The translations under genes were made by a program, and so were the position numbers. Shown here one piece after another: positions 23,601-27,794 of a stretch of DNA of 64,000 nt. Position 1 is the first letter of the stretch. Each line of letters opens with the position of its first letter. The stretch covers positions 178,928-242,927 of the forward strand of contig JASANH010000360.1 in assembly GCA_030248295.1 (NCBI GenBank), given 5' to 3'. Under the pieces are notes generated by a model, which saw only the letters and a list, made by a program, of their open reading frames with translations, did not search any database and was not told where the DNA came from. Origin of the DNA: Mesodorylaimus sp. YZB2_4 (taxonomy: Eukaryota; Nematoda; Enoplea; Dorylaimida; Dorylaimidae).

Positions 23601-26600
23601 TCTGCTCTTTTCGCCAGGTACTCCCGACAGTGGAGTGCGAAAACAATAAAATTGATATATTGTGCCCATACGAGTGTTATAAAATACTGTTTTTAGACCC
23701 AGGCCACGTAGATTTTTTGGAAGCTGCACGAAAGGAAGGAGATTATTTGATCGTCGGGATCCATTCAGACCAAGTATGTATGTGTTCCCTTTGCGGGCCT
23801 TGTTGCTACTTTAGTTTGAAAGAGCGCGGTCGGAGGTACGCTAGTCTTTGCTCGAGCTATGATCAAGCTCATTAGCCAGCAGTGGAGACCACATTCCCAA
23901 TCAAGGATACAGTCCATCGTCTGGGTACATGTCCCTGTACTGTCTACAAACAAATCCCTTCCACGGCAATTTTTCTGGAGACCATTAAACTTTCCACACC
24001 CGATAGCTTTTCGTTAAAGTAACCTTGGATAACCTCTCAATTACTAGTATCAATTAGGCCCTACTAGAGAAGATTTCTTGACTCGGTCTCTGATACGCTA
24101 GTGAAATGGGCACACATCTCTGTTATACACTGCACACACATGATGCGTGATAGAACTAAATCGCACGTGCTCTTAAGTGGGAATGGTAATAATTTTTTCT
24201 TGCAATAGTTTCCCCGAGGTCATGTGAAGTAGCGATATATTGCTGCAGTATAGGCTACCATGGACACACTGTCCATGGGGTGGGGCCCACACAACCCGTA
24301 GGCTGAGGAAATAAGCTCACTTCTGCAGATATGCCAGCCACACATCTCCCTTCCCTTATGGGTCTCTGACACACCTAGACTTGTGGAGTGGAACTGGTCC
24401 GAGGGTCTAATATGCAACTTGGTGACCATATTGCAGATCGTCAACAGACACAAAGGAAGCAATTATCCAATTATGAATTTACACGAGCGCACCCTGAGCG
24501 TTCTAGCCTGCAGGGTATGTGCACAATCATCAGCTGACTGATCTGGTCTCTAGATATCACTGGCATGTTTTATAGTACGTGTCCGAAGTCATTATTGGTG
24601 CGCCGTATCAAGTCACACGGGATTTAATCAGTCAGTTCAATGTAAGGTCCGCTAACCTGCCTTACCCAATAGCTGAGCCTTTGCGTCTCTATCTGCGCAG
24701 ATAAGCGTGGTAGTGCACGGATTGACTGGGACGAATATGGACGAGAATGGTCAGGACTGCTATGCCGTAAGTACCTTGCACTCAATTTTAGCTGCATACA
24801 CGAAGTCATACAAATGCTGGACAATTCCTGCAGTCTCTTAAATTTGACTGCCAGCTTGTATATACCATTCCAAAAATGATACACCCACATGCTCGAATGC
24901 GCCTTTCATATGGCCAATTTTTACACATCCCATATGTCTCGTATCAGGTTCCAAAGCAGATGGGCATATTAAAAACTATCGACACTGGGAACCGGCTGGC
25001 AACGAGCGACATAGTGCAGAGAATCATTGAACACAGGTATGTTCTCAGCCCACAGCACGGCAGGGAACGGGTTTGGCGGGCTATACTATAGGTAGTAGGC
25101 GTGTTTGGCCGGTGGAGAAGGTAGTGTATCTGGTTGCCGTGACTAACCGCCACATACAGCGTATCAGTTGCCTTCATGGCCGCTCGATAAGCTTCTCCAG
25201 GCGAGGCAGAAACCCGTCGCGTGGATGTCTCGGGCTCCTGCGACTAGGTGGCCTGCCCGGAGAGTTTTTGAGTCCATCCGCTCCCCGCGGTACTCCAATG
25301 TACTCCAATCACTACACAGCATGGTATGGCAACAGCAGATCCACTAGTCCAGTATAATCAGCAAAGGTATGGTATCATGAGGCAGTGTTCGGCCGAGGCC
25401 ACGACCTCGACCCCGACCTCGAGGAAAAACGGTCGAGGATCGAGGTTCACAAGCAAGATGCAACAAATAAGCTGTTTCCCAGTTTGGACACAAGGCGCAA
25501 AAGTGTGCCTGCTCCTTGCACAGAAAAAATTGCGCGATCTTTCTTCTAGCATAATTAAATCACTGTGTAGGCCTGCTTCGTCCAGATAGGGGCCATCCAT
25601 AAAGGTCGACCGCACAAAATCTCGATTTTTTGACCCCCCCTCCCCCCCTGACCGCATGCCGACCACTTATCGCGAACCCCCCCACCTAAAAAATGTTCGA
25701 CCACTTCATCCAGACCCCCTCCCCCTTCCAAACGCAGTTTTGTGAAATATTTCGACTTATGCTTTCTCGAGCTCGACAAAATGCCATCTCCTTCGAAGAC
25801 AAATCGTTTTTGATTAATGGAGCGGATTTCTATTTTGTAAAAGCCTCCACAAACTTTTCCCACAACTTTTCACCATATTTTTTAAAAGTTTTGCGGGTTG
25901 GGCCGCGCCGGCTCAGTTCTCTACGGGACTTCCAATCATATTAGCTGGCAAGCAGTCATGATATGATAAGCGCGGCTGTGAGGGATAGGTTGGGATCCCA
26001 ATCCTGATCCTGACATTGAGGCATCGGGATTCTGCTAATAATTATGATATGCATAAGCATGGCAGGCACACTCTGATCCATCATATCTGGCATGAAGCAA
26101 TAGCGATGAAGAGGCTACAGCAACATCGGCTCAAATCGATAATGATAGCAACACTAATTTTACTTAGCCTAGGCTGACCTTGTTGGACGAGTATCGAAAC
26201 TGCGAATGTACCGTATTTCCTCGGAATCCTCCCCCCTCTGGTTATTCTCCCCTGTCTAGACCCCGATTGAACTTTATTCTCCCCCCTCTGGAAATCCTCG
26301 CCCCTCTGTTATTCTTCCCCGTTTGGGACCCATTTGAAAAAATTTCTCCCTCGGAAAAAATTTTGAGGAAATACGGTACTCATTAATTTCAGCTTAGTTA
26401 TAATGACTGAAACTCGACCTGATAAAAACTTAAAAAACCTGGATGACTAAAGTGGGCTTTAGTCTGGAAAACAGAGTCATTTCCTTCGTGCGTGCAAACT
26501 GTTCGACCTCAAACAAAAAATCCCGATCCCGATCGGGCTTGCCCTGATCTCGATCCCGGAAAAAGGTGATACCGACCTATCCCTAGAGGTGACCAGCTCT

Positions 26601-27794
26601 CATGGCAGGCTCCATGTGTCTTCACTGGGAGCACCTCAACACGAGGGCATACTGGGTGAGAAGGGGCTTGGGCTTATCGTTAGCTTAGGGACCATCTTGA
26701 CTGGTGTTTGAAGACAGTTTCCCAATTCTCTGCCCCTTGGGTGGGCGTCCGCCGTGTGACAATAGCAGGGGTGTCGCCCAGAGCCAGGTGTCCAAGGTTA
26801 GCGACAAACTAGTAATCTGCCGTCTCCGTCGGAATGGAACCTCGGCCTCCCAGTCAGGGTTGCCGGCCAGCAAGGCGGATCAACGCCCTTAACCAGCTGA
26901 GCCATCGCCTCCCAACTTTTCCCTGTTGGATCAGATGCCATTCCAAATGGGAATAAGAGTCCTGATGAAGCCGAAATTGCATTATCGAGAATGAACGACC
27001 AAGGAGAAGAGAAGACAAAAAGTTTTGAAGGTTTGAACGCGCACTACGGGTGAAGATAAAAGGTGTTTTTTGTCATCAAAAGTCTAAAAATTTGCTGCGG
27101 TCGACCATTGGCCGCTACCCCTCCCCCTCCCCCGACCGCACCTGACCACTTTTTGCCAACCCCCTCCCCCCCCGAGGCTGCGGTCGACCTTTATGGATGG
27201 CCCCATAGCTTGTTTTTTATTCCTGTGGGTGATTCTTCTCTTGAAAAAGCAGTCAGAGGAGCATGGAAATAAACTTAAAGTTGTTGGACACATCACAAAA
27301 TAAGTTAGGGACTGTCAGCAAAAACCTCGACCCTCGACCTCGACCTCTACCTCGGATCGAAAAAGTTGAGCCTCGGCCTCGAATCCGACCTCGACAAAAG
27401 TCATCCTCGGCCGAACACTATCATGAGGGTATAATAGCACCATTACTGTTTCCAGTGTGCCGTGCAGCACACAATTACTGTACATCTCTATTGACAGAAA
27501 TACGTCAAAAGCACTTACTGTATAATTCATTTTACCTGGTAATTTGAAACTGTTCTTGTCGGCCCCACGTACTCATTGCAAGAGCAGGATAAACCTCATA
27601 CTACGTTTCTGGCTTAGCCATTCGCCAGTGTTCGCTATGGTTCATCCCACGGACACCCCTTTACGGGCCAGTACAGTAGGGGATTATACCGTGTGTGACC
27701 TATTCCTTTTCTCTACAGACTCGATTTCGAGCTACGGAATAAGAAGAAGGAAGCTCGCGAAATTTCGCATGTCTCAACGAGCTCGATGAGCTAA
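20682..27794 (+). CDS. PCYT2: ethanolamine-phosphate cytidylyltransferase, complete
   Basis: The enzyme makes CDP-ethanolamine from CTP and phosphoethanolamine, the usual rate-setting step of the Kennedy pathway to phosphatidylethanolamine. Fourteen exons join in phase: 20682-20752, 21085-21173, 21408-21569, 21628-21694, 22000-22047, 22254-22329, 22557-22649, 23510-23555, 23697-23773, 24437-24514, 24576-24641, 24701-24766, 24948-25036 and 27719-27794, giving about 367 residues (human 389). Two nucleotidyltransferase domains are seen. The first has HYGH at 29-32 and RTEGVSTTD, the CTP-binding signatures. The second has HPGH at 218-221. The linker reads [30 protein letters not shown] follows in the second domain. 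Intron 3 starts with GC rather than GT (21570). The last intron is 2.7 kb and filled with nested transposons; the tail exon ([11 protein letters not shown]) still matches the family. Confidence 0.95.
25092..25305. repeat. interspersed repeat family B, copy 1
   Basis: Shares GTAGTAGGCGTGTTTGGCC, GCGTATCAGTTGCCTTC, GGCCGCTCGATA, CAGAAACCCGTCG and CGCTCCCCGCGGTA with copies at 28253-28505 and 44703-44955. It lies in the last intron of PCYT2, just outside the hAT-like element. A SINE is possible, but I found no clear pol III boxes. Confidence 0.7.
26212..26375. mobile_element. small TIR element (CCGTATTTCC family), nested copy 2
   Basis: Ends CCGTATTTCCTCGGAATCCT and TTTTGAGGAAATACGG, flanked by GTAC at 26208-26211 and 26376-26379. 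The paralogous site in the third GGGGCC copy reads AATGTACTCATCAATTTCAG at 30972-30991 with a single GTAC, the uninterrupted state. At 164 bp it is much shorter than the 468-bp insertion at the same relative position in copy 1. Confidence 0.85.
26838..26916 (-). repeat. tRNA-like segment inside GGGGCC copy 2
   Basis: Minus strand reads GGGAGGCGATGGCTCAGCTG with an A-box-like TGGCTCAGCTGGTTAAGG, then a B-box-like GAGGTTCCATTCC. Equivalent segments are at about 1371-1450 (plus, in copy 1) and 31397-31482 (minus, in copy 3). Either a tRNA-derived SINE captured before the family amplified or a convergent match. Confidence 0.5.

Follow-up and report, generated by a model that had tools for sequence, protein, structure and literature searches.

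How many mobile elements are stacked in the last intron of a PCYT2-like gene of the nematode Mesodorylaimus sp. YZB2_4, and how much of that stacking took place at this locus? We addressed this for a window of 64,000 nucleotides (assembly GCA_030248295.1, contig JASANH010000360.1, positions 178,928 to 242,927), which is part of contig C168 of the 145 Mb assembly (G000) that was searched; positions below are those of the window. The original prediction had placed a three-level nest in this intron. We consider it very likely that the intron holds a five-layer nest of non-autonomous mobile elements, which accumulated by ordinary insertions in two phases. That is, the nest is real, but it comprises five insertions instead of three, with two more between the element with GGGGCC terminal inverted repeats (TIRs) and the innermost miniature inverted-repeat transposable element (MITE). 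It is thus deeper than first described, while being ordinary transposon biology, and such nests are common. Judged from the letters themselves, the borders of all five layers can be placed as follows, with SINE denoting a short interspersed nuclear element.

25037..27718, plus strand: last intron of the PCYT2-like gene (GT...AG; upstream exon ends at 25036, last exon starts at 27719)
25375..25382: left 8-bp (base pair) target duplication of layer 1, TCATGAGG
25383..27420, no strand assigned: layer 1, outer hAT-like element, made up of a shell of 419 bp and its insert, with the ends yAGTGTTCGGCCGAGG
27421..27428: right 8-bp target duplication of layer 1, TCATGAGG
25586..25588: left 3-bp duplication of layer 2, ATA
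25589..27204, no strand assigned: layer 2, GGGGCC element, 1616 bp, 26-bp TIRs
27205..27207: right 3-bp duplication of layer 2, ATA
25852..25861: left 10-bp duplication of the SINE-like element, AACTTTTCCC
25862..26913, minus strand: layer 3, SINE-like element of 447 bp when the insert is discounted, with its head at 26913 and its tail at 25862, A- and B-box-like motifs near the head
26914..26923: right 10-bp duplication of the SINE-like element, AACTTTTCCC
25981..26585, no strand assigned: layer 4, second hAT-like element, inside the SINE, ends yAGGGATAGGT and ACCTATCCCTA
26586..26593: surviving right 8-bp duplication of layer 4, GAGGTGAC
26209..26210: left TA duplication of the MITE
26211..26376, no strand assigned: layer 5, MITE, 166 bp, ends CCGTATTTCCTC and GAGGAAATACGG, an internally deleted form of an element of about 455-500 bp
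26377..26378: right TA duplication of the MITE

The outermost layer agrees with what had been predicted, i.e., a hAT-like shell with an exact 8-bp duplication on both sides. Its termini (CAGTGTTCGGCCGAGG and CCTCGGCCGAACACTA) are short inverted ends of the yAG..G type, and the 15-bp arms at 25384-25398 and 27405-27419 are complementary throughout. Ends of hAT elements follow a consensus of the yAGTG or yAGGG kind. Layers 1 and 4 resemble hAT-type MITEs in these ends, in their 8-bp duplications and in their many copies, and differ from them in that simple repeats similar to CGACCTCGACC or GATCCCGATCC come after the ends. The intron site minus the shell would read CAAAGGTATGGTATCATGAGGGTATAATAG.

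We also searched the genome for further shells, using the right half of the shell as query; 40 of 121 candidates were scored, and 29 non-self loci (L010-L038) were examined. In 27 of the 29, the joined shell halves align across the insertion point with zero insert, several of these alignments being partial; six of the 29 carry the exact empty-junction letters CGTCCAGATAGCTTG with a single ATA. The exceptions are L019, which has another insert near the same place, and L037, where the right half alone aligned. The different insert of L019 (L019:1702-2247) lies about 10 bp or less from the GGGGCC insertion point. Paired shell ends were recovered by scan in 20 of 30 loci (ours plus the 29), and 11 of these 20 shells show flanks with at least 7 of 8 identical bases, compared to a mean of 0.54 and a maximum of 5 over 2000 permutations. 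That is, ends corresponding to 25383 and 27420 do occur paired and their flanks beat permutation. L033-L035 are apparently copies of one shell. Shells elsewhere are about 13-24% divergent from the one in the PCYT2 intron.

These junctions also bear on whether the nest is an artefact of assembly, produced by the joining of repeats. The region is rich in repeats and is known from a single assembly, which speaks for such an explanation. Against it, the two shell ends share one 8-bp duplication, the two ends of the GGGGCC element share ATA, and the empty shells elsewhere reproduce the exact junction, such that we regard an artefact as barely credible.

The second layer likewise stands as predicted, i.e., as an element with complementary arms and ATA at both ends inside a shell that is found empty elsewhere. 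All 26 of 26 end bases are complementary (arms 25589-25614 and 27179-27204, end letters GGGGCCATCCATAAAGGTCG). A 54-base pattern of the left end has 124 genome matches (61+63) at up to 3 mismatches, while the reversed-pattern control has 0. Among the 45 GGGGCC copies considered, the scan recovered the two ends together in 30 and failed to do so in 15. Exact 3-bp flanks are present in 20 of the 30 two-ended copies, where permutation yields a mean of 2.4 and a maximum of 10. The 20 exact duplications are TTT, TAT, TAA, ATA, TTA, TTG, AGA, AAT, ACA, TGA and TTC, i.e., mostly A/T without a set motif, and only 5 of the 20 are TWA, so that the family does not conform to the TWA pattern of PHIS or PIF/Harbinger elements.

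To place this element among known superfamilies is less straightforward. Zator elements also produce a 3-bp duplication; a search with PF07592, which we take to be the Zator-type transposase, gave zero genome matches, and zero likewise in the control genomes. The PF13359 (DDE_Tnp_4) transposase domain, in turn, has at least 150 genome matches. According to passages of PMC4482050, the PHIS groups duplicate TWA, ANT, CWG or TNA, and part of PMC7386202 treats Zator as a separate superfamily. Layer 2 shares with PIF/Harbinger and its relatives, as covered in those passages of PMC4482050, and with Zator the 3-bp A/T-rich duplications, but its duplications exceed the TWA/ANT/CWG/TNA set given there, making PHIS a poor fit. 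A literature search for the TIR letters returned one unrelated match and no relevant paper.

Several of the PF13359 matches have long open frames, which indicates that PHIS-type transposases are abundant in this genome. We considered the match on C344, which lies nearest to a GGGGCC left end among the matches listed, as a partner of the GGGGCC element and rejected it: it belongs to a separate element with other ends that is inserted within a GGGGCC copy. There, L099:910-5287 (G000:C344:40400-47400) forms a sixth layer, i.e., a 4378-bp PIF/Harbinger-like element in the MITE of a GGGGCC composite. Its matching ends are 27 bp long (GGGAGAAACTATACTTCAGTTTTATCG), it is flanked by TTA left and right, and it contains the PF13359 match. 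Because it has its own ends and TTA and sits inside another copy's MITE, it is a further passenger and not a partner. At 8091-8145 of the window, a short stretch resembles the left end of the GGGGCC element at 82% over 56 bp.

Inside the GGGGCC element follows the first of the two layers that had been missed. This SINE-like element carries an exact A-box-like motif (TGGCTCAGCTGG) and a B-box-like motif (GGTTCCATTCC) with 1 change from the consensus; such boxes are consensus motifs of RNA polymerase III. The B box is exact in L019 and L020, the A box in L069. When 42 GGGGCC loci were scanned for the 10-bp duplication AACTTTTCCC, 34 matched at both places, of which L085 and L086 (same site twice) were removed. 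In 17 of the remaining 32 loci AACTTTTCCC is exact on both sides, and in the others it is slightly different. With its A/B-box-like motifs, its 10-bp target duplication and its relatives with a common core, layer 3 resembles tRNA-derived SINEs. At 135 places in the genome, the sequence continues uninterrupted across the site at which layer 4 is inserted (3 mismatches allowed, with 2 or 3 in those listed; control 0). We examined three of them (L069-L071), which show similarity to the SINE but none to the GGGGCC arms.

For the two innermost layers, two further copies in the same window are informative.

1083..3006, minus strand: GGGGCC composite with a 470-bp MITE and an intact left GAGGTGAC, an earlier stage
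30366..31770, plus strand: GGGGCC composite without MITE (empty TA site), the earliest stage in the window

Layer 4 has lost its left 8-bp duplication by deletion in the copy at 25981 (junction GGCTGTG/AGGGATAGG). The sequence GAGGTGAC is found on the left in all 9 of 9 MITE-free loci read (L072-L080; 1 change in L072 and L076). On the right it was read in 7 of the 9, being exact in L073, L079 and L080, with 1 change in three and with 2 changes in L076. Both sides are exact in L073, L079 and L080 as well as in the window copies 1083-3006 and 30366-31770, i.e., older copies of layer 4 show the 8-bp duplication that is characteristic of hAT. Given GAGGTGAC on both sides in these older copies, we rejected a 3-bp GAG duplication for this layer. 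We also rejected L072-L081 as free-standing hAT copies as far as seven enlarged loci (L082-L088) are concerned, all of which contain GGGGCC-element sequence; L074-L076 were not enlarged.

For the innermost element, the prediction of a small passenger within the GGGGCC element was right, while its GTAC duplication has to be replaced, since most other copies show TA. The empty site reads GAATGTACTCATC. Window copy 30366-31770 has it letter for letter and L008 with 1 base changed, and when 3 mismatches are allowed it occurs 175 times in the genome, against 0 for the control. A pattern of the MITE end in which the third base preceding the end may be anything but G matches 137 sites; of these, 100 were listed, and 84 of the listed ones have TA directly before the end. 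TA is present on both sides in 9 of 10 examined MITE copies, which represent 10 of the 13 end pairs seen among the matches listed, with C42, C103 and C190 left out. The most plausible reading of GTAC is therefore a TA whose neighbouring bases agree by chance, although, since TA is self-complementary, insertion at T/A without any duplication is conceivable as well.

The examined MITE copies range from 97 to 499 bp. The 470-bp MITE of window copy 1083-3006 can be aligned over nearly all of its length to five of these (about 79-84%), and the 166-bp MITE of the PCYT2 intron is 304 bp shorter than this form, its middle being missing. With TA on both sides and inverted ends beginning CCGTATTTCCTC, layer 5 is like Tc1/mariner-like TA-target MITEs; unlike these, some copies of the family have other flanks. 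An example is the tenth of the examined copies, L096 (G000:C157:229470-230025), whose flanks TG and CA are inverted and not direct repeats; TG is seen before the end at other listed sites, too. A lone MITE-like copy with the same ends lies outside of composites at 19116-19230 of the window, flanked by TA on the left and CA on the right.

This evidence decides against a nest of merely three layers whose small element made a 4-bp GTAC duplication. It is true that GTAC stands on both sides of the small element here and that the empty site reads as given above, but most other MITE copies have TA plus differing neighbours, and each of the two additional layers has a duplication of its own as well as relatives that are uninterrupted. 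We therefore give the three-layer version next to no weight. In summary of the junctions, there are uninterrupted relatives for the GGGGCC element in the shell, for the hAT-like element in the SINE and for the MITE in the hAT-like element.

How much of this nest was built in the PCYT2 intron depends on whether its inner part occurs elsewhere. Queries from within the GGGGCC element match many places: 25975-26600 finds 39 other places (best-scored of 869 candidates) at 90-94%, and 26570-26990 finds 39 (best-scored of 1086 candidates) at 90-93%, in both cases all or nearly full length. These matches imply that the inside of the GGGGCC element is itself a repeat, and the inner stack is common to other GGGGCC copies.

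We also computed a tree of these copies (midpoint root, MITE columns excluded), which covers 45 of 48 copies, 3 being dropped for a coverage under half. The sample is non-random, i.e., a query containing the MITE brought in many of the MITE-bearing copies, whereas the MITE-free ones were mostly collected by their empty site. The 35 MITE-bearing copies fall into one group (support 0.70) that has a single MITE-free member, L008, while the other nine MITE-free copies are outside. The copy at 1083-3006 with its 470-bp MITE is the first branch within the MITE-bearing group. Among the 36 distinct MITE-bearing copies that were read at the left duplication of layer 4, it is gone from 32 and kept in L003, L051 and 1083-3006, and L061 is ambiguous. 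Over aligned bases, MITE-bearing composites diverge from the one in the PCYT2 intron by 4-7% and MITE-free ones by 7-12%.

MITE-free copies could in principle be later excisions or gene conversions instead of ancestral states, and L008, nested in the MITE-bearing group, looks like such a case. As a general explanation we deem this improbable, since 9 of the 10 MITE-free tree copies are outside of the MITE-bearing group and 10 of the 11 MITE-free copies read keep the left duplication (two with 1 change), with L008 alone having lost it.

The inner stack accordingly took shape within an ancestral GGGGCC element, which multiplied across the genome and came in as a unit. In a first phase, away from PCYT2, the SINE-like element would have entered an ancestral GGGGCC cut-and-paste element with a 10-bp duplication, followed by a hAT-like element into the SINE with the 8-bp duplication GAGGTGAC and by a full-length TA-target MITE into this layer-4 element. 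The MITE would then have suffered its internal deletion and the left layer-4 duplication would have been lost, and the loaded GGGGCC element would have spread to many places, presumably via a transposase acting in trans. In a second phase, a hAT-like MITE, i.e., the shell, would have come to lie in the intron of PCYT2, flanked by an 8-bp duplication of its own, where a single loaded GGGGCC copy would have inserted in it with a 3-bp duplication. This likely path, from the GGGGCC element with its SINE via the hAT-like element, the full MITE, the deletion with loss of the left duplication and the spread to the shell that is now in PCYT2, fits the divergence of the shells and composites. We infer the enzymes responsible for the insertions.

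The original prediction had read the whole order of insertion from the nesting. That part holds for the shell, as the nesting proves it to be older than the landing of the GGGGCC copy in it. It does not hold for the complete order, given that the inner layers were pre-assembled: being common to GGGGCC copies genome-wide, the three inner layers predate the arrival of this copy. Nesting alone orders neither the inner layers relative to the shell nor the shell's arrival in PCYT2 relative to its filling. The shell may thus have been filled by the GGGGCC element elsewhere, with the loaded hAT-like element then moving into PCYT2 as a unit. Such a move leaves an identical nesting order, agrees with the outer duplication being intact (8 of 8 bases) and, if by cut-and-paste, could leave no sister copy. 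The GGGGCC element is, on the other hand, at the shell site in 0 of the 29 other loci examined (29 of 121 candidates). We hold the transfer of a loaded shell to be unlikely and infer that the shell was empty on reaching PCYT2.

Several results weigh against the five-layer, two-phase reading. L008 (G000:C7:1206381-1209587) is MITE-free and has lost the left duplication, yet is inside the MITE-bearing group, and L003 and L051 have the short MITE and yet keep the left duplication. These three copies are off a single line of descent, such that recombination, excision or repeated deletion is needed to accommodate them. For C42, C103 and C190, at least one MITE end lacks TA, which reduces the copies with TA on both sides to 9 of 13 pairs. 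Exact 3-bp flanks are absent in 10 of the 30 two-ended GGGGCC copies, and a by-eye comparison of PF13359 matches with left ends, among the matches listed, tied no transposase to the GGGGCC ends. The genome search for SINE-free GGGGCC copies yielded none at up to 3 mismatches; layer 3 thus lacks an empty site within this family and is supported by its duplication and by relatives elsewhere. In this layer, different from tRNA-derived SINEs, neither ARAGORN nor Rfam recognised a tRNA, be it in the window region or in the SINE relatives.

Nested elements and relative dating from nesting are already well established, so that the finding is a tidy example and not a novel type. Transposition-in-transposition chronologies such as TinT (PMC3014933) and REANNOTATE (PMC2672092) employ nested insertions to order element activity. 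Our analysis shares this principle and differs from the uses described there in that most of the order comes from an amplified composite and not from a single locus. The spread of the inner three layers as a block means that at most one nesting event belongs to the PCYT2 intron. A single-locus nest can therefore mislead on timing, as three of the five layers were assembled elsewhere and spread as a block. For this genome, the nest yields ordered element families with uninterrupted relatives for most layers. It may also aid repeat annotation, where the 1.6-kb GGGGCC block is otherwise liable to be split into four families or to be masked as one.

Finally, we considered the host gene. The C-terminal letters of the upstream exon of the PCYT2-like gene are IVQRIIEHR, and, as read from the DNA, the exons at 25036 and 27719 join in frame. 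The joined exon tail aligns to residues 308-341 of chain A of human ethanolamine-phosphate cytidylyltransferase (3elb) with an E-value of 0.0007, and the match spans the join. The predicted in-phase splicing of the terminal exon across the nest thus fits the in-frame sequence and the 3elb match over the join, and on paper the load in the intron would leave the reading frame undisturbed.

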